From assembly GCA_947626495.1 (NCBI GenBank), contig CANQSJ010000005.1, positions 1 to 64,000 on the forward strand: a stretch of DNA of 64,000 bases, given 5' to 3'. Below, one piece after another: positions 1 through 45,988 of this stretch. The notes beneath the pieces are model-generated. The model ran no database searches and had not been told where the DNA came from. It was given only the letters and a program-made list of their open reading frames with translations. How positions within the stretch are numbered: position 1 is the stretch's first letter; each line of letters opens with the position of its first letter. The position numbers were made by a program, and so were the translations under genes. Origin of the DNA: an uncultured Oscillospiraceae bacterium (GTDB taxonomy: Bacteria; Bacillota; Clostridia; Oscillospirales; Oscillospiraceae).

Positions 1-57
1 GCCCGCAGCCCCATTGAGCAGCGGCGGCAGATGGATTCGCTGGCGCTCTTGCTATAA
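1..57 (+). CDS. 3' end of RecA-type tyrosine recombinase, unit 1 (partial)
   Basis: The window opens inside this gene; only the last 18 codons and the TAA stop are visible. They match the end of the complete recombinase at 35489-36328 at every base except one silent change (position 49 t versus c), so this is a second copy of the same enzyme. The visible part follows the catalytic Tyr of the family (residue 260 in the complete copy), which lies just outside the window. It is placed directly before the invertible switch, as in unit 2, and is the natural candidate for the enzyme that flips it. Confidence 0.85.
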   Translation, partial: ARSPIEQRRQMDSLALLL

Positions 58-60
58 AAA

Positions 61-88
61 ATACCACAGAATTCACATTCTGTGGTAT
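61..88 (+). repeat. Left inversion site (IRL), also a leftward terminator hairpin
   Basis: Arms ATACCACAGAA and TTCTGTGGTAT surround TTCACA. The site is a near-perfect 12-bp palindrome with a 4-nt loop. Read on the minus strand it is followed by TTTTTT just outside the invertible segment, so it also has the form of an intrinsic terminator for leftward transcripts coming from the internal promoter. Confidence 0.82.
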
Positions 89-131
89 GTACACGGAAAT
101 TAATTCCTCCGAGCCCAGCTTTACGAGGATG

Positions 132-160
132 ATTATAGCCCGCTTCCCTTAAAAAAGCAA
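132..160 (-). promoter_or_regulatory. Sigma-A type promoter inside the invertible segment, facing left (OFF)
   Basis: On the minus strand, TTGCTT (155-160) and a perfect TATAAT (132-137) are separated by exactly 17 bp. It is the best promoter in the segment and points away from the surface-protein gene. Leftward transcripts would meet the IRL hairpin and its T-run after about 65 nt. Confidence 0.7.
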
Positions 161-227
161 GGGGATTTTCAAAAAAAGTTTGATTTTTTACATACCAAAG
201 GCGCTTGAGGCTCTGTCAAAGAGCCGC

Positions 228-251
228 AAGCGTGTCGTCGCGCGCTTTTTT
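228..251 (+). terminator. Rightward intrinsic terminator inside the invertible segment
   Basis: AAGCGTG (228-234) pairs with CGCGCTT (241-247) around a 6-nt loop and runs into six T (246-251). In the present orientation it would stop read-through from the upstream recombinase into the surface gene; inversion turns it away. A second small hairpin (GGCTCT/AGAGCC, 209-225) lies just before it. Confidence 0.5.
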
Positions 252-312
252 CGGGTCTCAGCCGTCCAAATCTCGCTCAAATGAGAAAATTAGTGCCTTC
301 GCCCAAGCGCCG

Positions 313-340
313 ATACCACAGATTGTGAATTCTATGGTGA
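313..340 (-). repeat. Right inversion site (IRR), unit 1
   Basis: Inverted partner of 61-88, with arms ATACCACAGAT and TTCTATGGTGA around TGTGAA. Its outer arm is less symmetrical than IRL and has no T-run after it, so a transcript crossing it toward the surface gene is less likely to terminate. Confidence 0.82.
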
Positions 341-381: not shown

Positions 382-3309
382 ATGACAAAACGTGTACTCA
401 GCATGCTCATGGCGCTGATCATGGCTCTGTCTCTGTGCGTCCCGGCCTTCGCGGCTGACGAGCCTGTTAGTGCTGATGAGCCTGCTGCCGAGGTCGAGGC
501 CCCCGCGGCCGAGGCCGAGGAGACCGAGGCTGAGGCGGAGCCTGTTGACGAGCCCGCCGAGGTGGCCGTTGATGAGCCTGAGGCGGTTGCCAACGGTGAG
601 GTCAGCGCTTACGCCAAGGAATACCTGAACTATGCGATGGAACAGGCTAAATCCTACAAGGCGCAGGTCGACGCCGGTGAGCTCTACGTCGAAGGAGAGT
701 TTAAGGCAATCAACGATGAGACTCGTACGGATAAGTTCGACAAGGCTTACGCCGAGGCCGAGCGCAACCAGAAGGGCATCGCGGGCGAGGAGACCGGCGC
801 TGACGTGACTGACACCAGCGTTCAGAAAGCGGCTAAGGATCTGTTGGATCTTCTGCCTGAAGACGTGGCTGCGGGTACGTCTGGCAAGCTGACCAACCAG
901 GTCACTCAGACGATGAAAGATGCCGTCACAACTAAGTTGGGTCAGTCTATCGCCACTCCGGCCGGCAGCACTGGTAGTGATCTTTCTAGCATTACGAGCA
1001 AATCCCCGGAAGCGGCTATCGACGCGCTCTCTGCGAGTCACTCCGACGCGCTTGTGGCGGCTGTAAAGGCTGCCGTGGCGGCTGCCAAGGCTTTCGAGGA
1101 GATCAAAAAGCCGGTCTATTCCGATTACCTGAAGGTAGAGAAACTCGCCCTGGCGGTTGTGGATATCATCAAGAACGAGAAGCTCACCGCTGAGGATGCC
1201 AAGACTCTGCAGGCGGCCATCGACGCGGTGAAGGCTGCTCAGAAGGATGGGTCCATCAAGAACTATGTCGGCGGCCAGGCTGGGGGAAATCTGACCAAGG
1301 ATGAAAAGACGGAAGGCCCGCTCAAGACCGCTGTGGAGCTGCTTAACCCGACAGGCGTTGGCGTTGGCAAGAACGGCTTTGTTGATAGCGCGACCTATGC
1401 AACTTATCGCGCCGCTCTGGCTGCGCTGAAGCTTGTCCCCATTGACATGGATGTCAAGTTGACCCTGACCCTTAAGAAGAAAGATGGGAAGATCACTGCT
1501 GTTACGGCTAAGCTGGAAAAGGATACGAATAATACGACCGAGTATTATTACACCTATGACGTCAATGGCACTTTGTTCTGGAACGGCGCGGATGTGAATT
1601 ACAACGATAAAGCCGCCGATCCTGTGAAGTTTGATGGTGCCTCCCAGGAAGTGAAGCCGCTGCACGCTGTGAAAGAGAACACTGATGATGTAACCGCTTT
1701 CAAGGCCAGCGATAAAGTCACCGTTACCATCAGCACGAAGGATGCGCATGGCCGGTTCACACCTGTGATTACTGAGTCTATCACCATGCCCGCTGACGGC
1801 TATGCCGGACCCACCATTGCCGTGGATGAGGACACGGGCGAGGCACTGGTGAAGGTGACCTATGGTTCTGAGGAAGCCGCTGCCAAGCTGGGTGTTGACA
1901 CCGATAGTCCTTTGGCAGCTCCTAAGAGCGCGTCCGAAGGCACGAAGGGAATCGAGGTCGAGGTGACCCTCACGGCTGAGGAAATGGACGGGACCGTTGG
2001 TGATAATTGGGATCTGGTTGCTCTTTCCGGCAAAACCGTGGTAGGCAAGGCGGAGAGCGTTGAAACTTCCAAGGGCACCATTACGATCGATGAGAGCAAG
2101 CTCACCGGCAGCACCCTGCGGATCGAGCTGCGGGTGAAGACAGATGAGGGCGGAGAGGCCCAGTGGCATGAAGGCTGCGATGCGACCGTCACGCTGGATG
2201 CGCTGTCTGCTTGGGATGACGTTGAGGACGCGAATGCTGTCATCGAGGCGGCTGAAGCCCTGGTGAAGGCCGATTACGAGCTGGATGAGAGCAAACTTGC
2301 TTCTTTGAAGCAGATGGATATCGAGACCTATGATCAGGCTTGGGATCTGCTCCAGGCCCGTCTGAAGGACATCAAGGATATCGTCGCGAACGCCGACAGC
2401 GAGGTCAACAGCAAGACCGAGCGTAAGGCCCTGATTACTGCCGTTACAGATCTGACTACTGTCTTTGGCTATCTGAAAACTGCTGCGGCTGACAAGACCG
2501 CCTATTATGAGGCTGTTGACGCTGCCGCCGAGATCTCTGATACTTACAGCAATAATGAAGATGAAAATGGCGAGCATGTCTTCACTTATGCTTCCTGGAA
2601 GGCTTTCTCTGATGCCTATACAAAGTATAAGGCTGAGACCTTCGACAAGAGCCCGTATCCCTCTCAGTCTCAGTATGACGCCGCTGCAAAGGCGCTGAAC
2701 GAGGCTGTCGCCGGACTGAAGGAGGTTGACGGCACCGACGCCACCGAGCTGGAGTCCGTGATCGCTGAGGCTGAGGCCCTGAAGGAAGAGGACTACACCG
2801 AGGAGTCCTGGGCTGACGCCGATCTGGCCAATGCCATCGCCGATGCCAAGGAAGTCCTGGCCGACCAGACCTCTACGCAGGATGAGCTGGACGCCGCTGT
2901 TGAAGCCCTGAAGGCTGCCATGGCCAAGCTGGTCCCCGCCGAGGAGCCCACCGAGCCCGAGCTGAAGGAAGGCTGGAACCTGGTCGAGGGCGAGTACTAC
3001 TACTGCAAGGACGGCAAGATGGTCAAGTCCGACTGGGTCAAGTCCAAGGGCCTGTGGTACCACATGGGCGCGGACGGCACCATGGACACCGGCTTCATCC
3101 ACATCGTGGACGATTGGGGCGATGGCTGGTACTACCTGGAGCCCAGCAATGCGAAGGGCACCGAGGGCCGCATGCGTACCGGCTGGCAGGATATCGATGA
3201 TGCTTCCGCCGGTCCTTACGGCTGGTTTGAGACTCGCTCCAACGGCCACCAGGGACAGTGCACTTATACCAAGGGCTGGGGCGACTTCGACGGCTACATC
3301 AAGAAGTAA
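382..3309 (+). CDS. Phase-variable secreted surface protein with cell-wall-binding C-terminus, unit 1
   Basis: The protein has 975 aa. The start at 382 is set by TAGGAGGACATC eight bases upstream; longer in-frame starts would run through the inversion site. Residues 1-24 form a signal peptide ending in AFA. An acidic, Pro/Ala/Glu-rich stretch (about 25-75) follows, then a long region of helical and beta segments with no recognised family. A FIVAR-like helical module lies at about 787-850. Residues from about 864 are aromatic Gly-Trp repeats (GWNLVEGEYYY, WYHMGADG, GWYYLE) typical of choline/glucan-type cell-wall-binding domains. The signal peptide and C-terminus are nearly identical to unit 2 while the middle is diverged. 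It is probably a cell-surface antigen or adhesin; the ligand is unknown. Confidence 0.85.
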   Translation: MTKRVLSMLMALIMALSLCVPAFAADEPVSADEPAAEVEAPAAEAEETEAEAEPVDEPAEVAVDEPEAVANGEVSAYAKEYLNYAMEQAKSYKAQVDAGELYVEGEFKAINDETRTDKFDKAYAEAERNQKGIAGEETGADVTDTSVQKAAKDLLDLLPEDVAAGTSGKLTNQVTQTMKDAVTTKLGQSIATPAGSTGSDLSSITSKSPEAAIDALSASHSDALVAAVKAAVAAAKAFEEIKKPVYSDYLKVEKLALAVVDIIKNEKLTAEDAKTLQAAIDAVKAAQKDGSIKNYVGGQAGGNLTKDEKTEGPLKTAVELLNPTGVGVGKNGFVDSATYATYRAALAALKLVPIDMDVKLTLTLKKKDGKITAVTAKLEKDTNNTTEYYYTYDVNGTLFWNGADVNYNDKAADPVKFDGASQEVKPLHAVKENTDDVTAFKASDKVTVTISTKDAHGRFTPVITESITMPADGYAGPTIAVDEDTGEALVKVTYGSEEAAAKLGVDTDSPLAAPKSASEGTKGIEVEVTLTAEEMDGTVGDNWDLVALSGKTVVGKAESVETSKGTITIDESKLTGSTLRIELRVKTDEGGEAQWHEGCDATVTLDALSAWDDVEDANAVIEAAEALVKADYELDESKLASLKQMDIETYDQAWDLLQARLKDIKDIVANADSEVNSKTERKALITAVTDLTTVFGYLKTAAADKTAYYEAVDAAAEISDTYSNNEDENGEHVFTYASWKAFSDAYTKYKAETFDKSPYPSQSQYDAAAKALNEAVAGLKEVDGTDATELESVIAEAEALKEEDYTEESWADADLANAIADAKEVLADQTSTQDELDAAVEALKAAMAKLVPAEEPTEPELKEGWNLVEGEYYYCKDGKMVKSDWVKSKGLWYHMGADGTMDTGFIHIVDDWGDGWYYLEPSNAKGTEGRMRTGWQDIDDASAGPYGWFETRSNGHQGQCTYTKGWGDFDGYIKK

Positions 3310-3328: not shown

Positions 3329-3358
3329 GGGAGCAGGGTCTCTGGCCCTGCTCCCTTT
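3329..3358 (+). terminator. Hairpin between surface gene and RecB-type gene, unit 1
   Basis: GGGAGCAGGG (3329-3338) pairs perfectly with CCCTGCTCCC (3346-3355) around a 7-nt loop, followed by only three T. It sits 18 bp before the next start and is identical in unit 2. It is either a terminator or an attenuator that lowers expression of the downstream recombinase homologue. Confidence 0.65.
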
Positions 3359-3375
3359 CCAAAAGGGGGATGACC

Positions 3376-4218
3376 ATGGACGTACTGGAACTGAGGCCGA
3401 GGGCGCAGGCGCGGTCCCGCGAGGCCGGCGTGCCCATGACCGAGGCGGACGGCGAGCGGTTCCTCGCGGATCTTGCGGCCAAAGGCCGCGCGCCGGAGAC
3501 TGTGGAGCGGTATCGCCGGAGCTTGGAGCACCTGGCCGAGGTCCTGCCTGAGGACCGGAAGATCCGGCGGGGGACACTGCGCCAGTGCCGGGAGGCGCTG
3601 CTGGCGGCGGGCTATGCGCCGAGGACGGTGAATCTGGTGCTCTCCGTGGCGAATACGTACGTGGCCTACATGGGCCATCGGGAGTATCAGCTGGCGGATA
3701 CCTTGGAGACGGAGGCGAAGCTGCATCCGGAGCTCAGCCGCGCGGAATATCGGCACCTCCTGCAGGTGGCGAAGCTGCTTGGGCGCGAGAAGGTGTACTT
3801 GCTTGTGAAGCTGTTTGCGTCCGCGGACATGCCTGTCCAGGAGCTGGATAAGGTCACGGTGGAGTCCGTGACGGCCGGCCAGGTAACGGTGGGCGAGGGC
3901 AATTCCCGCCGCAACATCCGGCTGCCGGCATGCGTCCGCAAAGAGCTGCTGGCCTTCGCCGAGCGGCAGGGGATTTACCGCGGACCGATTTTCCTGACGA
4001 AGGATAACACCCCCATGAGCCGGACCTACGTCACCAGCGCGATTCGCAACCTGTGTGCGGTCGCCAAGATCCCGGTGGAGAAGGGCAGTCCTCGCTGCCT
4101 GCGGCGGCTGTATCTCGCCGGCCGCAAGGCCATTGAGGACAATGTCGCCCTGCTGGTTGATCAGGCCCTGGAACGCCAGCTGGACGAGGAACAGCTGACG
4201 ATTGGATGGGAAGTATAA
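3376..4218 (+). CDS. Degenerate tyrosine-recombinase homologue (RecB-type), unit 1
   Basis: The protein has 280 aa. ATG 3376 is chosen over 3370 because the GGGGG ribosome binding site touches 3370. An N-terminal SAM-like DNA-binding domain (about 20-115) and a C-terminal recombinase fold are recognisable. The catalytic set is damaged: the first Arg motif reads ASADMPVQEL (148-157) instead of TGxRxxEL; the HxLR box reads RCLRR (240-244, His lost); and the GHxS and Tyr segment is replaced by a tail ending IGWEV. It should therefore bind DNA but not cut it, suggesting an accessory or regulatory partner of the active recombinase. It is nearly identical to 40160-41002, with scattered silent changes. 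Confidence 0.8.
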   Translation: MDVLELRPRAQARSREAGVPMTEADGERFLADLAAKGRAPETVERYRRSLEHLAEVLPEDRKIRRGTLRQCREALLAAGYAPRTVNLVLSVANTYVAYMGHREYQLADTLETEAKLHPELSRAEYRHLLQVAKLLGREKVYLLVKLFASADMPVQELDKVTVESVTAGQVTVGEGNSRRNIRLPACVRKELLAFAERQGIYRGPIFLTKDNTPMSRTYVTSAIRNLCAVAKIPVEKGSPRCLRRLYLAGRKAIEDNVALLVDQALERQLDEEQLTIGWEV

Positions 4219-35470: not shown

Positions 35471-35488
35471 TTATATGGAGGTATGAAC

Positions 35489-36328
35489 ATGATCGCACTG
35501 AACGAACAAGCTTTGACAGATTTTCGCGCACGATTGGTAGAGGACGAGGCGGCGCCGGCCACGGTGGCCAAGTATCTCTCGGCGGTCCGCCGCCTGGCGG
35601 CGTTCTGCCACGGAAACCTGTGGAGCAAGGCCCAGCTGGTGGCCTTCAAACAGGACTTGGAGGCGTCGGACCTGGCGCCGGGGACGGTAAACGGCGTGCT
35701 GACAGCGGTGAATAAGCTCTTGAATATCAGCGGATACCGCGAATGGCGCTTGCGGTTCCTCAAGGTCCAGCGCCGTGTTTTCATGGCTCCCGAGCGGGAG
35801 ATGACCCGCGCGGAGTATGAAAGGCTGGTGAATACCGCCCGCATGAACGGAGACGAGCGCACCGCCACGATTTTACAGACGCTCTGCTCCACCGGCGCAC
35901 GGGCGGGAGAGCTGGCAGCCATCACCGTGGAGGCGGCGAAGGCCGGGCACGCGGAGATCCGCTCCAAGGGCAAGATCCGCATGATCCTTCTGCCCAAGAA
36001 GCTGTGCAAGCTCCTGCTCAATTACTGCGCCAAGCGCAGCATCACCAGCGGCCCCATCTTCATCACCGCCTCCGGGAAGCCCCTGGACCGCAGCAACCTC
36101 TGGAAGACGCTGAAGGCCCTGGCGGCGAAGGCGAAGGTGCTGGCGAACAAGGTTTTTCCGCACAATCTCCGCCACCTCTTCGCCCGCACCTATTATAAAA
36201 AGACCCGGGACATCGTCCGCCTGGCCGACATCCTGGGACACAGCAGCGTGGAAACCACCCGCATCTACACCGCCCGCAGCCCCATCGAGCAGCGGCGGCA
36301 GATGGATTCGCTGGCGCTCCTGCTATAA
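35489..36328 (+). CDS. Tyrosine recombinase (RecA-type, active), unit 2
   Basis: The 279-aa protein starts at ATG 35489, seven bases after GGAGG; ATG 35483 is too close. The N-terminal core-binding SAM-like domain spans about 10-95. The catalytic set is complete: Arg138 (TGARAGE), His225 and Arg228 (HNLRH), His251 (LGHSS) and nucleophile Tyr260 (TRIYT). The gene ends four bases before the left inversion site, the usual layout of a dedicated inversion enzyme. The last 57 bases equal the fragment at 1-57 but for one silent change. Confidence 0.93.
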   Translation: MIALNEQALTDFRARLVEDEAAPATVAKYLSAVRRLAAFCHGNLWSKAQLVAFKQDLEASDLAPGTVNGVLTAVNKLLNISGYREWRLRFLKVQRRVFMAPEREMTRAEYERLVNTARMNGDERTATILQTLCSTGARAGELAAITVEAAKAGHAEIRSKGKIRMILLPKKLCKLLLNYCAKRSITSGPIFITASGKPLDRSNLWKTLKALAAKAKVLANKVFPHNLRHLFARTYYKKTRDIVRLADILGHSSVETTRIYTARSPIEQRRQMDSLALLL

Positions 36329-36331
36329 AAA

Positions 36332-36359
36332 ATACCACAGAATTCACATTCTGTGGTAT
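36332..36359 (+). repeat. Left inversion site (IRL), unit 2
   Basis: Same 28 bp as 61-88. On the minus strand it is followed by TTTTTT, giving a leftward terminator. Confidence 0.82.
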
Positions 36360-36402: not shown

Positions 36403-36431
36403 ATTATAGCCCGCTTCCCTTAAAAAAGCAA
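36403..36431 (-). promoter_or_regulatory. Promoter inside the invertible segment, unit 2, facing left (OFF)
   Basis: Minus strand: TTGCTT, 17 bp, TATAAT, as in unit 1. Confidence 0.7.
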
Positions 36432-36583: not shown

Positions 36584-36611
36584 ATACCACAGATTGTGAA
36601 TTCTATGGTGA
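36584..36611 (-). repeat. Right inversion site (IRR), unit 2
   Basis: Same 28 bp as 313-340; inverted partner of 36332-36359 with centre TGTGAA. Confidence 0.82.
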
Positions 36612-36652: not shown

Positions 36653-39600
36653 ATGACAAAACGTGTACTCAGCATGCTCATGGCGCTGATCATGGCTCTG
36701 TCTCTGTGCGTCCCGGCCTTCGCGGCTGACGAGCCTGTTAGTGCTGATGAGCCTGCTACCGAGGTCGAGGCCCCCGCGGCCGAGGCTGAGGAGATCGAGG
36801 CGGAAGAGGTCGAGGCTGAGGCGGAGCCCGTTGACGAGCCCGCCGAAGCGGCCGTCGACGAGCCGGAGACCGCCGCGGTTGACGAGCCCCTGCTGGTTAC
36901 CCTGGGCATCGTCACCAAGGAGGCCCACTGGGATCTGAAGAAGGTCGTTGACGCAGCCGAGAAGCTGGTCCCCGATGTGGAGGCCGGCACGGTCCATCCC
37001 ACCGATGCAGCCGCTATCGACTTTGACACGGCTCTCGAGGCTTATAAGAAGGACAAGACCGATCCCTTTAAGGACGACTGCAAGGGCTTCACGGATGCTC
37101 TGGCCACGGCCAAGGAGTATCTGGAGGGCATCGACGGCAAGGAAGTCGACCTCAATGTGACCACCGCCAACGTGGAAAAAGCGGCCGAGGATCTGTCTGA
37201 ATACCTGGCTTATGACCTTAAAAACCAGGAGGGTGCGCATAGACTGGTCAAGGTGCTGGGTAGCGTGACTAGTGCTGATGTCGCGGCGTATCTTTACGAC
37301 ACGACCGACTATCGTGCCCTCGCGTCCTATAAGAGTGGCACTCCTTACACCAAAGCTACGGACGAGCTGAAGATCAACTTCAACGGCAAGGATAAGGTGA
37401 CCTCCAATCCTTACTGGACCGCTGCCTACAAGACCAGCTACCTGACCAAGCTGCAGGCGGCCATCGACGCCGTCGTGGCCTACAAGGCCAAGTACGCGCC
37501 CACTTACTCGGATTACAAGACCGTCGTCTATGCTATCCTGGACGCTCTGGCCCTGGAGGAGGAAGGCGCGAAGCCTGTTTCCGCGGACATGACCCGCGTC
37601 AACGCCGTGATCGCGGCGACCCCCGATGAGGACGATTACGTTAAGACCGATTACATTCTGCAGAAGGAACCGTCTGAAATTTACACCTCTGGCCTGCTGG
37701 CCAAGGTCACGGCTCTGAAGGCCGACCCCGCCGCCGCCACCGTGCAGTTCGCGAGCGGCACGCTGCTGTGGTCCGTGAACACCGCTGTTGCGAAGCTCGA
37801 GGCCGCGCTGATCAAGCCGGGCAAGACCACCATCAAGTTCCTGAAAGGCTACGGCGAGGACGGTGCTGAGAACGCAACCGTCACCTTCACCGTCGATAAC
37901 GTGACCGGCCAGGGCGATAAGTCCTCTGCCACGGGGATGGACGGCTATGAGTACGGCATCGCCTGGCGTGTGAAGCACGAAGGCACCGAGAAGTGGTTCA
38001 AGAACGGTGTGGACGAGGGCGTTGAGTACAAGTCCGGCGCCGCTGTTCCCACGGACGTGATCCAGAAGCTGATCAAAGGATTCGATACGGAGAAAGCAAA
38101 AGAGTGGGGATATGATGACGACGAGCACTACTGGTGTGTGAGCGGCCAGGTGAAGGCCATCGGCAGCAGCGCGAAGTTCGCCGAGGGCGACGTCGTCACC
38201 GTTTATATCTTCAAGAACGAAGGCGGAGCGGATAGTGCCGCATCTTGGACGCAGGTCCTGATGAAGGACTTCAAGATCGGGCCCAAGTCCGATGCTCCTG
38301 AGACAATTCCCTGGCCCAAGATCTCCTCTGTCACGTATTCTGCTGCGACTGCCGGTGAGGTTGTCGCGCTGAGTGGTAAGCTGTACGGCTCTGACGGCTA
38401 TGCTGCTACGAGTAAGCGTAGCAACAACCTTAAAAACTTCTCGGAAAGTGCTCAGATCGTTGTGACTCTGGCAGAGCCCGGCGTTGACGTGACTGCCGGA
38501 ACTGGTAACGCGAAAGAATATGACGTCTGGTATGAAATCAAGGACGCCAACGGCAAGACCATTTTCACCAGCGAAAAGTTTGCGGATGGGAAAGTTACAA
38601 GTACCACGCTCCAGGCTGGTGACGAAGATGGTCAGTTCGATGACTCCCTGTTCAAGGCCGGAACCTACACCGTCGAGCTGCGCGCCTGCAAGAAGGGCGA
38701 CATGGAGGGCGGCATCTCCCAGCGTTGCGCGAAGTTCGAGTTCACCATTGATCCTCTCGCCACCTGGGAGGCCGGCTCCAGCGTGAACCAGCCCCAGACC
38801 ATCGAGCTGATCCTGCTCGCGGCCGAGGATCTGGTTGAGGGCGACTTCATTGTGGGCAAAAACTATGAGGGCGAGTTCGATGCTACTACGCCCGAGGGCA
38901 AGGTAGCTCAGGCCTTTGATCTGATCGAGAAGAACATCGCCGGGATTCGCAAGGTCCTGAGCGCCAGCGGCGCCGGCAACACGGTTACCAACCACAACCT
39001 GGCTGTCAAAAATGACGAGAGCAACGCGACCTGCCTCGATAAGCTGCTCACCGTGATCAGCTACCTCGAGAAGAAGGATGCGGACCTCAACGATATGAAC
39101 AAGCAGCTGAAGCTCGCCATCGACGCTATTGGCGATCCTTCCAAGACTGAGAACGAAGGCACCGGCAAGTACACCTTCGACACCCGCGGCCGTCTGCAGG
39201 ATGCCATCAAGGCCGCCCAGAAGCTGCAGACCGCTGGCGCCACCGGCGCTCTCCAGTCCGATGTGGACGCCGCCACCGCTGAACTGAAGGCCGCTCTGGC
39301 CGGCCTGGTGGAGATCGGCGAGATCGACAAGTCCGAGCTGGAAGCCTCCATCGCCGCCGCCGAGGCCCTGAACGAGGACGATTACACCCCCGAGTCCTGG
39401 GCCGACCTGGAGGATGCTATTGAGGCCGCCAAGAACGTGCTGGCTGACGAGGATGCCACCCAGGCTCAGCTGACCAACGCCGCCGACAAGCTGAACAAGG
39501 CTGTCGCCGCGCTGGTGAAGAGAGATCTCACCACCGAGGATCTGGAAGAGGCCATTGCCGCCGCTGAGGCCGCCATCGCCGATCCCAGCAAGTACACCGA

Positions 39601-40093
39601 CGAGTCCGTTCTGGCCGTGCAGGACGCCATCACCGCCGCCAAGGCGCTGGGCGATGACGCCACCGCTGCCGAGATCCAGGAGGCCATCGACAAGCTGGAC
39701 GCCGCTGTGAAGGGGCTGGTTCCCGCTGAGGCAGAGCCCGAGCTGAAGGAAGGCTGGAACCTGATCGAGGGTGAGTACTACTACTGCAAGGACGGCAAGA
39801 TGGTCAAGTCCGACTGGGTCAAGTCCAAGGGCCTGTGGTACCACATGGGCGCGGACGGCACCATGGACACCGGCTTCATCCACATCGTGGACGATTGGGG
39901 CGACGGCTGGTACTACCTGGAGCCCAGCAACGCCAAGGGCACCGAGGGCCGCATGCGCACCGGCTGGCAGGAGATCAATGACGCCACCGCCGGCCACTGG
40001 GGCTGGTTCGAGACTCGCTCCAACGGCCATCAGGGCATGTGCACCTACACCACCAACCAGGGTGACTACAAGGACTACAAGCCCGTCAAGTAA
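36653..40093 (+). CDS. Phase-variable secreted surface protein with cell-wall-binding C-terminus, unit 2
   Basis: The 1146-aa protein uses the same AGGAGG and start context as unit 1. The signal peptide (1-24) and first 35 residues equal the unit 1 protein; the acidic Glu/Pro/Ala linker is longer. The middle (about 90-880) is diverged, with a beta-rich part from about 400 and no known family. Two FIVAR-like helical modules lie at about 892-958 and 960-1023. The cell-wall-binding aromatic repeats from 1034 are nearly identical to unit 1, with some 125 bases identical even at third positions. It is probably a surface adhesin or antigen whose ligand differs from that of unit 1. Confidence 0.85.
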   Translation: MTKRVLSMLMALIMALSLCVPAFAADEPVSADEPATEVEAPAAEAEEIEAEEVEAEAEPVDEPAEAAVDEPETAAVDEPLLVTLGIVTKEAHWDLKKVVDAAEKLVPDVEAGTVHPTDAAAIDFDTALEAYKKDKTDPFKDDCKGFTDALATAKEYLEGIDGKEVDLNVTTANVEKAAEDLSEYLAYDLKNQEGAHRLVKVLGSVTSADVAAYLYDTTDYRALASYKSGTPYTKATDELKINFNGKDKVTSNPYWTAAYKTSYLTKLQAAIDAVVAYKAKYAPTYSDYKTVVYAILDALALEEEGAKPVSADMTRVNAVIAATPDEDDYVKTDYILQKEPSEIYTSGLLAKVTALKADPAAATVQFASGTLLWSVNTAVAKLEAALIKPGKTTIKFLKGYGEDGAENATVTFTVDNVTGQGDKSSATGMDGYEYGIAWRVKHEGTEKWFKNGVDEGVEYKSGAAVPTDVIQKLIKGFDTEKAKEWGYDDDEHYWCVSGQVKAIGSSAKFAEGDVVTVYIFKNEGGADSAASWTQVLMKDFKIGPKSDAPETIPWPKISSVTYSAATAGEVVALSGKLYGSDGYAATSKRSNNLKNFSESAQIVVTLAEPGVDVTAGTGNAKEYDVWYEIKDANGKTIFTSEKFADGKVTSTTLQAGDEDGQFDDSLFKAGTYTVELRACKKGDMEGGISQRCAKFEFTIDPLATWEAGSSVNQPQTIELILLAAEDLVEGDFIVGKNYEGEFDATTPEGKVAQAFDLIEKNIAGIRKVLSASGAGNTVTNHNLAVKNDESNATCLDKLLTVISYLEKKDADLNDMNKQLKLAIDAIGDPSKTENEGTGKYTFDTRGRLQDAIKAAQKLQTAGATGALQSDVDAATAELKAALAGLVEIGEIDKSELEASIAAAEALNEDDYTPESWADLEDAIEAAKNVLADEDATQAQLTNAADKLNKAVAALVKRDLTTEDLEEAIAAAEAAIADPSKYTDESVLAVQDAITAAKALGDDATAAEIQEAIDKLDAAVKGLVPAEAEPELKEGWNLIEGEYYYCKDGKMVKSDWVKSKGLWYHMGADGTMDTGFIHIVDDWGDGWYYLEPSNAKGTEGRMRTGWQEINDATAGHWGWFETRSNGHQGMCTYTTNQGDYKDYKPVK

Positions 40094-40112: not shown

Positions 40113-40142
40113 GGGAGCAGGGTCTCTGGCCCTGCTCCCTTT
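40113..40142 (+). terminator. Hairpin between surface gene and RecB-type gene, unit 2
   Basis: Same GGGAGCAGGG/CCCTGCTCCC stem as in unit 1. Confidence 0.65.
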
Positions 40143-40159
40143 CCAAAAGGGGGATGACC

Positions 40160-41002
40160 ATGGACGTACTGGAACTGAGGCCGCGCCAACAGGGCCGCGC
40201 TCGCGAAGCCGGGGTGCCCATGACCGAGGCGGACGGCGAGCGGTTCCTCGCGGATCTTGCGGCCAAAGGCCGCGCGCCTGAGACCGTGGAGCGGTATCGC
40301 CGGAGCTTGGAGCACCTGGCCGAGGTCCTGCCCGAGGACCGGAAGATCCGTCGGGGTACGCTGCGCCAGTGCCGGGAGGCCCTGCTGGCGGCGGGCTACG
40401 CGCCGAGGACGGTGAATCTGGTGCTCTCCGTGGCGAATACGTACGTGGCGTACATGGGCCACCGGGAGTATCAGCTGGCGGACACACTGGAAACGGAGGC
40501 GAAGCTGCATCCGGAATTGACGCGGAGCGAGTATCGGCACCTGCTGCAGGTGGCGAAGCTGCTTGGCCGGGAGAAGGTGTATCTTCTCGTCAAGCTGTTT
40601 GCGTCTGCGGACATGCCCGTCCAGGAGCTGGATAAGGTGACGGTGGAGTCTGTAACGGCGGGCCAGGTGACCGTGGGCGAGGGCAATTCCCGGCGCAACA
40701 TCCGCTTGCCGGGCTGCGTCCGCAAGGAGCTGCTGGCCTTCGCCGAGCGGCAGGGCATCTATCGCGGACCGATTTTCCTCACCAAGGATAACACCCCCAT
40801 GAGCCGGACCTATGTGACCAGCGCGATCCGCAATCTCTGCGCGGTCGCCAAGATCCCGGTGGAGAAGGGCAGTCCTCGCTGCCTGCGGCGGCTGTATCTC
40901 GCCGGCCGCAAGGCCATTGAGGACAATGTCGCCCTGCTGGTTGATCAGGCCCTGGAACGCCAGCTGGACGAGGAACAGCTGACGATTGGCTGGGAAGTAT
41001 AA
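40160..41002 (+). CDS. Degenerate tyrosine-recombinase homologue (RecB-type), unit 2
   Basis: The 280-aa protein differs from the unit 1 copy at only a few residues (for example RPRQQGRARE versus RPRAQARSRE) but at many silent sites; the last 150 bases are nearly identical. The same catalytic losses are present (SADMPVQEL, RCLRR, no GHxS, no Tyr). Retention of an intact frame with mostly silent changes in both copies indicates selection for a non-catalytic role. Similarity between the two units stops at the TAA codon of this gene, which marks the unit boundary. Confidence 0.8.
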   Translation: MDVLELRPRQQGRAREAGVPMTEADGERFLADLAAKGRAPETVERYRRSLEHLAEVLPEDRKIRRGTLRQCREALLAAGYAPRTVNLVLSVANTYVAYMGHREYQLADTLETEAKLHPELTRSEYRHLLQVAKLLGREKVYLLVKLFASADMPVQELDKVTVESVTAGQVTVGEGNSRRNIRLPGCVRKELLAFAERQGIYRGPIFLTKDNTPMSRTYVTSAIRNLCAVAKIPVEKGSPRCLRRLYLAGRKAIEDNVALLVDQALERQLDEEQLTIGWEV

Positions 41003-42836: not shown

Positions 42837-43248
42837 CCTTCAGCTCCTTTAGGATGCTCTCCTCTGCGGACTTGCTGATCTTCCGCGGATTTTTGGCTGG
42901 CAAGCGCTTTTTCGTCGTCGGAGCCTGCAGCTCGGCGACCCAGCAGTTATCTTCCCGGCGCATGGAGTACCGAGCGGGAAGAACAATGCCGGCGGAGACG
43001 ATGTGTCCGACCAATTCCGGCCTTTTCACCGTGCCGCTCTTTGGGAGCGTATACCCGGATGTTGGATCCTCCACGACGCAAACCCTCTTGCCATCCGGCA
43101 GTATGCCAATCTTGATGTGGAGCGGTAGTGCCTCGCGGGCCGGACTGTTGAACGTAAAGCCGCCGGTCTCCGACACGCTGATCATCATCTCCGGCGGCTT
43201 TGGGCCCAAATCGAACCAGATGAATTCCTTAAAATTGATGTTTGACAT
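42820..43248 (-). CDS. Unknown protein paired with the sigma-like gene
   Basis: The 142-aa soluble protein is not recognised. The N-terminal half is beta-rich (KEFIWFDLGPKPPEMMISVSE); the C-terminal tail is basic (KKRLPAKNPRKISKS). Overlap and order suggest co-function with the sigma-like protein, for example as partner or antagonist. Its upstream region is shared with the divergent fic gene. Confidence 0.6.
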   Translation of the reverse strand: MSNINFKEFIWFDLGPKPPEMMISVSETGGFTFNSPAREALPLHIKIGILPDGKRVCVVEDPTSGYTLPKSGTVKRPELVGHIVSAGIVLPARYSMRREDNCWVAELQAPTTKKRLPAKNPRKISKSAEESILKELKDGKRR

Positions 43249-43314
43249 TAATTAATCCTCCTTTTTTGGGGACTGGAGGAATTATAGGGGAAAACTGCCA
43301 GAACGTAAAGAGAG

Positions 43315-43351
43315 TCAATTTAATCATTGATTTAGAAAATGATTAAATTGA
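43315..43351. promoter_or_regulatory. Large operator between the sigma-like pair and fic
   Basis: Perfect 14-bp arms TCAATTTAATCATT and AATGATTAAATTGA, 9 bp apart, lie four bases upstream of the fic -35. A further half-site TTGATCATTGA overlaps the -35. It probably controls both divergent transcripts; the winged helix at the Fic C-terminus is one candidate binder. Confidence 0.75.
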
Positions 43352-43354
43352 TCA

Positions 43355-43384
43355 TTGACGGGTACATATTCTTAGAGGTATAAT
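43355..43384 (+). promoter_or_regulatory. Promoter of the fic-hsd operon
   Basis: TTGACG (43355-43360), 18 bp, perfect TATAAT (43379-43384). Confidence 0.78.
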
Positions 43385-43419
43385 CGAAGTGTGATGATTT
43401 CTTTTAGCCAGGTGATTCT

Positions 43420-44478
43420 ATGCGCAATTACGACTTCATAAGCAAATATGAAACCCTCCTTTCCCCCGTCATTGTAGCACTGCTGTCCCAGATCCATGAG
43501 TTTCGAGGCGAACAGGCCAAGCTTATGGGCACCAAAGAGGACACGCTCATCCAATTTGTGGAAATCGCCAAGATCCAGAGCACGGAAGCATCCAACAAGA
43601 TCGAGGGCATCTACACCTCAGACGAGCGGCTGAAGAAGATCGTGCGGGAGAAAACCATGCCCAAGACCCGCAGCGAGAAGGAGATCGCAGGTTACAGGGA
43701 CGTTCTGGCCACCATCCACGAAAGTTATGACTATATCCCCCTCCGGCCCTCTGTCATCCTGCAGCTGCACCGGGACCTCTATAAATACAGCGGTCTTTCC
43801 ATTGGCGGGCGCTATAAGGATTCCGATAACATCATCGAGGAGACGGACGCCGCCGGGAACAAGACGGTGCACTTCCAGCCAGTCCCCGCCTGGGAGACCT
43901 CCGAGGCCATGGACCGGCTGTGCGCGGCCCATGACGAGGCCCGGCGGGACCCGGCGCTGGACCCGCTGCTGCTCATGCCGATGTTCATTCTGGATTTCCT
44001 CTGCATCCACCCCTTCAACGACGGCAACGGCCGCATGAGCCGGCTTCTGACGCTGCTGCTCCTGTACCGAGCCGGTTACGCCGTCGGGCGATACATCTCC
44101 ATTGAGGGGCTCATTGAGACATCCAAAGAGACCTATTACGAGGCCCTGCAGGAGAGCTCTGCTGGATGGCATGAGAATGCCAACGACTACGCCCCCTTTG
44201 CCCGGTATATGCTGGGCGTGGTGGCGGCGGCCTACCGCGAGTTCAACGACCGGGCGCAGCTGCTGACCGCCCCGGAGCTGTCCAAGCCCGACCGGGTGCG
44301 GGAAATCATCAAGGGGACACTGGGAAAGATCACCAAGGCGGAGATCATGGAAAAGTGCCCGGATATCGCCCAGATCACGGTGCAGCGGGCGCTGAGTGAA
44401 CTGGTGAAGTCCGGCGAGATCATCAAAATCAGCGGCGGTCGATATACGTCGTACACTTGGAACAGGGAGAGAGACTGA
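43420..44478 (+). CDS. Fic-domain protein (class II, autoinhibited) with C-terminal winged helix
   Basis: The 352-aa protein carries the Fic active site HPFNDGNGRMSR at about 197-208, intact for AMP transfer. The inhibitory helix SNKIEG lies at about 57-62, in the N-terminal position of class II Fic proteins. The C-terminal 60 residues form a winged helix (KITKAEIMEKCPDIAQITVQRAL), suggesting DNA binding and autoregulation. It is the first gene of the restriction-modification operon, 2 bp before hsdM. Confidence 0.9.
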   Translation: MRNYDFISKYETLLSPVIVALLSQIHEFRGEQAKLMGTKEDTLIQFVEIAKIQSTEASNKIEGIYTSDERLKKIVREKTMPKTRSEKEIAGYRDVLATIHESYDYIPLRPSVILQLHRDLYKYSGLSIGGRYKDSDNIIEETDAAGNKTVHFQPVPAWETSEAMDRLCAAHDEARRDPALDPLLLMPMFILDFLCIHPFNDGNGRMSRLLTLLLLYRAGYAVGRYISIEGLIETSKETYYEALQESSAGWHENANDYAPFARYMLGVVAAAYREFNDRAQLLTAPELSKPDRVREIIKGTLGKITKAEIMEKCPDIAQITVQRALSELVKSGEIIKISGGRYTSYTWNRERD

Positions 44479-44479
44479 C

Positions 44480-45988
44480 ATGGTGACCGGAGAACTGAAA
44501 AACAAAATTGACAGCCTTTGGGAGATATTCTGGACCGGCGGGCTGACCAACCCGCTGGACGTGATCGAACAGATGACCTACCTCATGTTCATTCACGACC
44601 TGGACGAGACAGACAGCCTGCGGGCAAAGGAGAGCGCCATGCTGGGCCTGCCCTATACGAGCACGTTTCCCCCGGAGGTACAGATCGGCGGCCGGACCAT
44701 CGACGGCAGCCAGCTCAAATGGAGCGTGTTCCACGACTTTCCCGCCGGGAAGATGTACTCCGTCGTCCAGGAGTGGGTGTTCCCCTTTATCAAGGAGCTG
44801 CACGGGGACAAGCAGAGCGCCTATTCCAAGTACATGTCCGACGCCATCTTTAAGCTGCCCACGCCGCTGATCCTGGACAAGGTGGTCACGGCTATGGACG
44901 GCATATACGCCCAGATGGAGCAGATCCAGTCCGCCGACGTGCGGGGCGACGTATACGAGTACCTGCTGTCCAAGCTCTCCACCGCCGGCGTCAACGGCCA
45001 GTTCCGCACGCCCCGGCACATCATCCGCATGATGGTGGACATGCTTCAGCCCCGGCCGGACGACACGGTCTGTGACCCGGCCTGCGGCACCTCCGGTTTC
45101 CTGGTGGCCGTCAGTGACTACCTGAAGGAAAACCGCAAGGCGGACGTATTCTTCGACCGCCAGCACAAGGACCACTACATGAACCACATGTTCCACGGCT
45201 ACGACATGGACCGGACCATGCTCCGCATCGGCGCCATGAACATGATGACCCACGGCGTGGACAACCCCTTCATCGAGTACCGGGACAGCCTCAGCGACCA
45301 GAACCCGGACCGGGACAAGTACTCCCTCATCCTGGCCAATCCACCCTTCAAGGGCAGCCTGGACGCGGACATCGTCAGCACGGACCTCTTAAAAGTCTGC
45401 AAGACGAAAAAGACGGAGCTTCTGTTCCTGGCGCTGTTTCTGCGGATGCTGAAGGTGGGCGGCCGCTGCGCCTGCATCGTCCCGGACGGGGTGCTGTTCG
45501 GCTCCTCCACCGCCCACAAGGCCATCCGTAAAGAGCTCATTGAGAACAACCGCCTGGAGGCTGTGGTGTCCATGCCCTCTGGGGTGTTCAAGCCCTACGC
45601 CGGCGTGTCCACCGCCGCACTGGTGTTCACCAAGACCGGCCACGGCGGCACGGATAAGGTCTGGTTTTACGACATGCGCGCCGACGGTTTCAGCTTGGAC
45701 GACAAGCGCACCCCCACCAAAGACAATGACATCCCCGACATCGTGGCCCGGTTCCATGACCTGGCCGCGGAGGCGTCCCGCGCCCGCACGGACCAGAGTT
45801 TCCTGGTCCCCAAAGACGAGATCGCCGGGAACGATTATGACCTCTCCATCAACAAGTACAAAAAGACCGAGTACGTCCCCGTGGAGTATCCGCCCACCAG
45901 CGAGATCCTGGCGGAACTCCGTGCGCTGGAGGCCGAGGTCGGGAAGACGATGGACGAGCTGGAAAAGATGCTGGCGGAAGATATGTGA
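44480..45988 (+). CDS. hsdM: Type I restriction-modification methyltransferase subunit
   Basis: The 502-aa N6-adenine methylase has the SAM-binding motif DPACGTSGF at about 199 and the catalytic NPPF at about 287, after an N-terminal helical HsdM domain. It pairs with HsdS for methylation and with HsdS and HsdR for cleavage. Confidence 0.95.
   Translation: MVTGELKNKIDSLWEIFWTGGLTNPLDVIEQMTYLMFIHDLDETDSLRAKESAMLGLPYTSTFPPEVQIGGRTIDGSQLKWSVFHDFPAGKMYSVVQEWVFPFIKELHGDKQSAYSKYMSDAIFKLPTPLILDKVVTAMDGIYAQMEQIQSADVRGDVYEYLLSKLSTAGVNGQFRTPRHIIRMMVDMLQPRPDDTVCDPACGTSGFLVAVSDYLKENRKADVFFDRQHKDHYMNHMFHGYDMDRTMLRIGAMNMMTHGVDNPFIEYRDSLSDQNPDRDKYSLILANPPFKGSLDADIVSTDLLKVCKTKKTELLFLALFLRMLKVGGRCACIVPDGVLFGSSTAHKAIRKELIENNRLEAVVSMPSGVFKPYAGVSTAALVFTKTGHGGTDKVWFYDMRADGFSLDDKRTPTKDNDIPDIVARFHDLAAEASRARTDQSFLVPKDEIAGNDYDLSINKYKKTEYVPVEYPPTSEILAELRALEAEVGKTMDELEKMLAEDM

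Follow-up and report, generated by a model that had tools for sequence, protein, structure and literature searches.

A predicted promoter inverton of an uncultured Oscillospiraceae bacterium with a recombinase paralogue lacking catalytic residues on its switched side

A short segment framed by inverted sites lies between a tyrosine recombinase gene and a surface-protein gene of an uncultured Oscillospiraceae bacterium, which raises the question of whether the segment is an invertible promoter switch, which enzyme could turn it over, and what role is played by the recombinase-like gene on the other side of the surface gene. The window, that is, the whole stretch of 64,000 nucleotides analysed here, is the start of contig C5 (the genome consists of 2.14 Mb in 62 contigs), and its first base is a contig end that falls inside the recA gene of unit 1. 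A second unit is complete in the window, with the gene order recA, inverton, surface gene, recD, and the order in unit 1 is the same as far as it is seen (table 1). The best explanation for the locus as a whole, to which we assign a probability of about 0.9, is a promoter inverton flipped by recA, OFF in the present orientation, with recD on the switched side. The surface protein of unit 1 has a signal peptide (judged by eye), conserved C-terminal wall-binding-like repeats and a divergent middle; among the five surface proteins of the genome, likewise, the ends are most similar and the middles differ.

Table 1. Positions of the features of units 1 and 2 in the window
Feature	Positions	Strand	Remarks
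recA 3' end, unit 1 (tyrosine recombinase gene)	1..57	+	remainder probably on contig C23
Left inversion site (IRL), unit 1	61..88	+	perfect 12-bp palindrome around TCAC; core TTCACA 72-77
IRL stem and U-run, predicted intrinsic terminator for the outward promoter (OFF state)	54..88	-	
Inverton promoter-like site, unit 1	132..160	-	TTGCTT-N17-TATAAT, directed away from the surface gene (OFF)
GC-rich hairpin within the segment, a weak candidate for a gene-ward terminator	201..233	+	
Right inversion site (IRR), unit 1	313..340	+	core TGTGAA 324-329
Surface-protein gene, unit 1	382..3309	+	975 aa; AGGAGGA at 366-372
10-bp hairpin between surface gene and recD, unit 1	3329..3355	.	identical sequence in unit 2, 40113-40139
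recD, unit 1	3370..4218	+	282 aa; tyrosine-recombinase paralogue without catalytic residues
recA, unit 2	35483..36328	+	281 aa; PF00589; intact R-K-H-R-H-Y
Left inversion site, unit 2	36332..36359	+	
Inverton promoter, unit 2 (OFF)	36403..36431	-	
Right inversion site, unit 2	36584..36611	+	280-bp segment identical to unit 1
Surface-protein gene, unit 2	36653..40093	+	1146 aa; FIVAR repeats
recD, unit 2	40154..41002	+	recombinase paralogue without catalytic residues

Two inverted 28-bp sites with an identical 6-bp centre had been proposed in the earlier note, and both the sites, which agree in 24 of 28 positions, and their common core were found. Within bases 1-400 this is the best inverted match of 28 nt, compared with a maximum of 21 over 1000 dinucleotide shuffles. 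The site pattern gives six hits in the window against 0.02 expected; these correspond to four sites, since the left site reads on both strands. The 9 distinct units compared have an A-rich stretch ahead of the left site. A first test of the cores gave pairs in 46 of 87 units, with identical cores in 35/35 distinct ones, but the core itself had counted in the selection of sites; the test was therefore replaced by a search in which pairs were sought by their arms and the core was not scored. Among the 87 recA units examined in this way, 45 have a site pair, and the 6-bp core is identical in 33 of the 34 distinct pairs, which carry 26 kinds of core; with shuffled partners the mean number of identical cores is 1.42 and the maximum 7. 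The single mismatch (L135) looks mispaired, and an alternative candidate pair of sites at that locus shares TTCACA. The cores are thus identical within a pair and free to vary between units. The 42 units without an arms-only pair include those cut by contig ends, units with one site, units with fused recD and units with another site geometry, and the search also misses L219 and L220 of genome G397, whose inversion is proven otherwise.

The promoter that had been described as facing away from the surface gene is present on the minus strand of the segment. It was identified by its match to the consensus, and the same motif keeps its position in relatives, in both orientations. A promoter scanner applied to the segment did not report it, since TTGCTT matches TTGACA at only three of six positions, and reported two other promoter-like sites. 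One of these, the weak match GTGAGA-N16-TATTAT (plus strand, 337-364, 9/12), lies outside the segment, faces the surface gene and overlaps the ribosome-binding region; it is probably a chance match. As for the terminator claimed to point toward the gene, the strong hairpin was recovered (-22.9 kcal/mol, z -1.76), but it ends well ahead of its T-run, so that its support as a terminator is weak, and in the gene-ward direction a terminator scanner gave only a 5-bp stem at 230-243. The cleaner terminator is the left site itself when read on the minus strand, where a perfect 12-bp stem is followed by TTTTTATAGC (z -4.19); prediction rates this stem and U-run as a good terminator of transcripts from the outward-pointing promoter. 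Considering that the promoter points away from the surface gene, the earlier prediction that this gene is OFF in the present orientation is supported.

More direct information on inversion comes from relatives, where the segment is found reversed, with the inner half-sites swapped and the outer half-sites kept. In G025, the inner segments of the units on C11 (OFF) and C4 (ON) are identical in 229/229 positions when aligned inverted, against 118/189 when aligned directly; the outer half-site marker (C/T) stays with the flank, whereas the inner marker (T/A) swaps and travels with the segment, which is the pattern predicted for strand exchange in the core. In G011, the units on C1 and C28 agree in 211/233 positions inverted versus 134/192 direct, and the crossover is confined to TACGCA; the window and C19 of G027 agree in 186/224 versus 128/181. 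Most of the compared genomes are drafts, in which repeats can be mis-joined, but G397, which belongs to another genus, is assembled as one contig, and its two units match in 217/217 positions inverted, with matching flanks of 898 and 1586 bp. In these two units (L219 and L220) the recombinase C-terminus reads KIKIL or KIKI according to orientation, because the left site overlaps the recA stop. Of the 45 paired units, 27 are OFF, 8 are ON and 10 were not called, and these calls are not independent, since four of them are identical copies from the genome studied here. In a survey of the genus (35 genomes including this one), the segment was matched in 13 genomes (E <= 1e-3), recA in 21 (E <= 1e-40) and recD in 14 (E <= 1e-25). 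The tyrosine-recombinase inverton proposed in the earlier note therefore agrees with what was found, namely both orientations in related units, half-site exchange at the core and an adjoining intact recombinase gene, and sequence comparison supports the reading of the segment as a promoter switch inverted by a tyrosine recombinase; the inversion itself is seen in relatives and would, by extension, also take place in this strain.

Within the genome itself, the 280-bp segment is identical in 280/280 positions at four loci (the two in the window, C8 and C13), and all four copies with paired sites are OFF. The recA and recD copies that flank these segments differ (dS 0.19-0.33), an observation in line with concerted evolution within the genome. 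The exchange of a recombinase-borne cassette was considered as the source of the identical segments and rejected, the identical tract not being bounded by the sites: pair by pair, it begins 6-172 bp ahead of the recA stop and extends 432-490 bp beyond it, and ordinary gene conversion therefore fits better. Contig C23, which probably carries the remainder of the unit 1 recA, terminates precisely at TTCACA, where the sequence shared by the two orientations stops. Its last 77 nt are window bases 1-77, the shared overlap is exactly 77 nt, and the 32-mer that ends at this TTCACA occurs in the genome only at the end of C23 and the start of C5. Given the 77-nt overlap, the break is most naturally read as an assembly-graph branch at the point of crossover; it is suggestive, and other causes, such as strain variation, are possible. 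A contig of G025 likewise starts 77 nt before the core, but this is not independent evidence, since two loci of opposite orientation there share the left flank, which explains it. A fifth unit of the genome (G000 C2, about 43000-44900; L016, L195) is diverged: its recA is intact (58%), its promoter faces the surface gene, and of the inversion sites there is a single full one, with no more than a weak half-site close to recA. It looks locked ON, although recA is kept, and five stretches in relatives resemble it (L130, L131, L132, L137, L138).

The gene that follows the surface gene, which as such lay beyond the view of the earlier note, is a recombinase paralogue without catalytic residues, and it appears to be an ancient copy of the flipping enzyme that is catalytically dead. 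When the recD domains of the genus are aligned with recA, the first Arg, the first His, the second His and the Tyr are each present in 0/48, and the second Arg is kept in 45/48. The 19 copies from the family all lack the Tyr, and all have Asp or Glu at the second His and Arg or Lys at the first His; the second Arg is kept in 15/19, and 2/19 have Arg at the first-Arg column. recD is a relative of the recombinases, its fold being read from sequence profiles: there is a Pfam SAM-like N-domain, and the profiles of both recA and recD match XerA/XerD-like structures (4a8e, 1a0p, 5hxy). Genes were assigned to recA or recD by the higher-scoring query, and matches were dropped at or below 180 bits for recA and at or below 90 bits per ORF or 60 per domain for recD. 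At seven loci (L148, L150, L152, L157, L159, L183, L184), at least two recD-like domains directly follow recA in fused or overlapping tandem; these ORFs of 196-749 aa are arrays of dead recombinases.

Wherever a locus holds both genes, recD lies downstream of recA on the same strand (24/24 loci in the genus and 19/19 in the family, 43/43 together), the stretches of the genus being cut mainly downstream of recA and those of the family mainly upstream of recD. In the genus, recD is placed after the surface gene. In other genera, 19/20 loci have recA, a gap of 47-370 bp, recD and then the cargo. This gap is demonstrated to be the inverton in G397 (L219, L220), contains arms-only site pairs in 4/19 loci (L221, L223, L225, L230) and contains weaker inverted matches in L214, L215, L218 and L228; a promoter found in it with a loose pattern points toward recD in some loci and away in others. 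In family f13, one of the two loci examined has the recA-recD pair. On the other side stand 39 recA loci of the genus that have no recD in the fetched stretch and 12 recD loci that have no recA there, contig ends truncating some of the loci in both groups. Neither gene is thus strictly dependent on having the other close by. Two of the recD loci, L163 (G022) and L164 (G016), are uncut there; in both, a surface gene with a similar promoter facing it is followed by recD, inversion sites were not seen, and the fetched 8.5 kb holds no recA. At E <= 1e-40 no recA is present in G016, and G022 has recA elsewhere. Near recD of units 1 and 2, no promoter-like site was found by the scanner, which also misses the inverton's own promoter. 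The hairpin shared by the two units between surface gene and recD has only a short T-run on the coding strand and is a possible attenuator limiting recD.

Of 400 genomes sampled from the family, 46 had matches to the recD query, spread over 24 of 106 genera, some of the matches being of the active type. In the order sample 8/394 genomes had a match and in the class sample 1/391, which was the genome itself; absence at these levels is soft, since the genomes were sampled, the threshold was strict and at most six candidates were scored per genome. Two matches in phages (weak) and 17 in plasmids were found, all below 60% identity. The cargo varies: a Pfam check of four proteins from three family loci gave ABC2_membrane and ABC_tran (L219), a nucleotidyl transferase (L212) and a VWA surface protein (L224). 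Judged by gene starts, recA invertons also stand before helicase-like genes (L140, L154, L166, L168, L169, L172, L178, L179). The L168 protein has ResIII/Helicase_C and six helicase-associated domains, and L168 and L166 give weak PADLOC matches (PbeA, type IV restriction); the cargo of this type is possibly a phase-variable defence or DNA-processing gene. The helicase-type units, seen in both orientations, showed no recD in the fetched stretch; among units without recD, L168, L172, L179 and the second unit of L169 are ON, and L140, L166 and L178 are OFF.

On the proposed mechanism, recA, made from the gene just upstream, would bind both palindromic sites and exchange strands within the 6-bp core, thereby inverting the segment of about 250 bp. 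In the OFF state the promoter would fire away from the gene and the transcript would be stopped by the hairpin and U-run of the left site; in the flipped, ON state the promoter would transcribe the surface gene and recD as one operon. The flipped form at unit 1 is predicted to give the junctions ATACCACAGAATTCACA/ATCTGTGGTAT. From the position of recD on the switched side we infer that it may be expressed in the ON state and act as a feedback factor on recA: made only in ON cells, it would modulate recA as an inhibitor or latch or by giving inversion a direction, possibly within complexes of both proteins at the sites. It is somewhat short of an even chance that these loci represent a conserved class of self-referential DNA switches in Oscillospiraceae-like Clostridia, in which the ON operon yields a dead recombinase that sets the bias or latches the state; such a protein would bind the same sites or join the same tetramer as the active recombinase.

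The strongest competitor to this feedback role is a structural one, in which recD, itself unable to cut, would fill half-sites in a mixed tetramer and aid inversion, and would not be a state-dependent brake. In its favour, the distances of recA and recD correlate across the 43 loci (r 0.473, 0/5000 permutations), but shared descent alone could give such a correlation, and the units without recD occur in both orientations; we consider this role unlikely, while granting it an appreciable share.

It may also be asked whether the segment is inverted in trans by another recombinase, for example a housekeeping Xer protein, while the adjacent recA serves another role. RecV of Clostridioides difficile is not encoded beside cwpV, according to the part of PMC2784873 that deals with it, and further recombinase-like genes are present in the genome studied here (C4, C20). 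Against this stands the state of recA, which adjoins the left site in the paired units (units elsewhere being invisible to a search that started from recA) and is intact across the family. In the genus, the first Arg, the first His and the second Arg are present in 64/64 sequences each, the second His and the Tyr in 63/64, one row being truncated, and the Lys in 54/64, with Arg in the other 10. In the family loci, the Tyr is present in 18/19 (the other is Cys in the alignment) and the first Arg in 18/19, one sequence being truncated. The dN/dS values of recA are 0.05-0.37 (21 pairs of 7 of the 64 sequences). The protein lies far below the NCBIfam cut-offs for Xer equivalogs (123.4 against 220 for XerA and 96.6 against 329.6 for XerD), as does recD (51.5 against 220), so that the pair differs from XerC, XerD and XerA, recD also by the lack of an active site. 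Five named loci were found with recA, the closest two (77% and 75%) being metagenome-assembled Oscillospiraceae from isolates labelled Lapin; two relatives at 45% are on viral contigs. Inversion in trans is improbable, and recA is likely the recombinase that acts on the sites, as its adjacency and the matching of the cores suggest.

It is very doubtful that recD is a decaying, functionless duplicate of recA. On the one hand, the catalytic residues are missing, L163 and L164 retain the gene next to a surface gene where no inversion sites are seen, and across the family the mean identity of recD is below that of recA (0.49 versus 0.65). On the other hand, recD is under purifying selection where tested (dN/dS 0.05-0.19, 28 pairs of 8 of the 48 sequences), it forms one clade (43/43, support 1.0), and the replacements at the two His positions are uniform throughout the 19 family copies. 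When the window is compared with three close species, recD also shows higher conservation (93, 90 and 81%) than recA (78, 76 and 67%), the conservation of the two within the genus being alike (0.60 and 0.59). That the region is fixed, its sites being operator or terminator palindromes that never invert, fits the uniform OFF state of the four identical copies and the good predicted terminator in the left site, but it is contradicted in relatives by homologous segments that lie inverted, with exchanged half-sites, in G025, G011, G027 and G397 and by the 33/34 matching cores, and was rejected.

Promoter invertons are well known, and to our knowledge little is understood about the determinants of inverton bias outside fim. 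The inverton described here is real and of the known kind; the new feature is the dead recombinase on the switched side, a role for which is suggested by its placement. The earlier note regarded CwpV of C. difficile as the closest known theme, and there is a likeness in that a tyrosine recombinase inverton lies upstream of a wall-protein gene in a member of the Clostridia. CwpV is nevertheless the weaker parallel, and a CwpV-type mechanism was rejected, since the promoter here lies within the inverted segment; in cwpV, as described in the relevant part of PMC2784873, it lies outside, OFF is modelled as terminator formation, and recV is not adjacent. The location of the promoter follows the logic of fim, and E. 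coli fim appears by analogy to be the closer parallel. One gene of the recombinase family would be coupled to orientation in both systems, here recD, by its placement; FimE is catalytically active, whereas the coupled protein here lacks catalytic residues and is encoded downstream of the switched gene, and there are several units here compared with one fim locus. As in fimS/FimB/FimE, the promoter is in the inverted segment and tyrosine recombinases are encoded beside the switch, and the amount of FimE varies with orientation and favours the OFF state (PMC2784873, in its account of fim).

A wider class that includes the recA units has perhaps been recorded among the invertons of hCom2, where inverton group 139 and invertase group 35 comprise 33 invertons, 32 of them from Clostridia (PMC11892184); the likeness is drawn from the descriptions. 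In the accessible portions of that paper, nearly all of group 139 are near a tyrosine-type recombinase gene and that gene family is listed as not regulatable by the inverton, invertases generally being so, with group 145 as a potential exception; a dead recombinase in the switched operon is not mentioned in those portions. A literature search, in which subscription journals were sparsely covered, found no paper on an inactive recombinase partner in a switched operon.

The switched side thus encodes a protein related to the flipping enzyme but lacking its active site, which provides a system for asking whether a pseudo-recombinase gives a switch memory; if the self-referential switch is true, DNA inversion would here have a memory circuit built on a pseudoenzyme. 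Considering that the cargo ranges from wall-binding-like surface proteins to ABC export, a sugar-nucleotide transferase and a helicase, gut bacteria may use a single switch design for several purposes.
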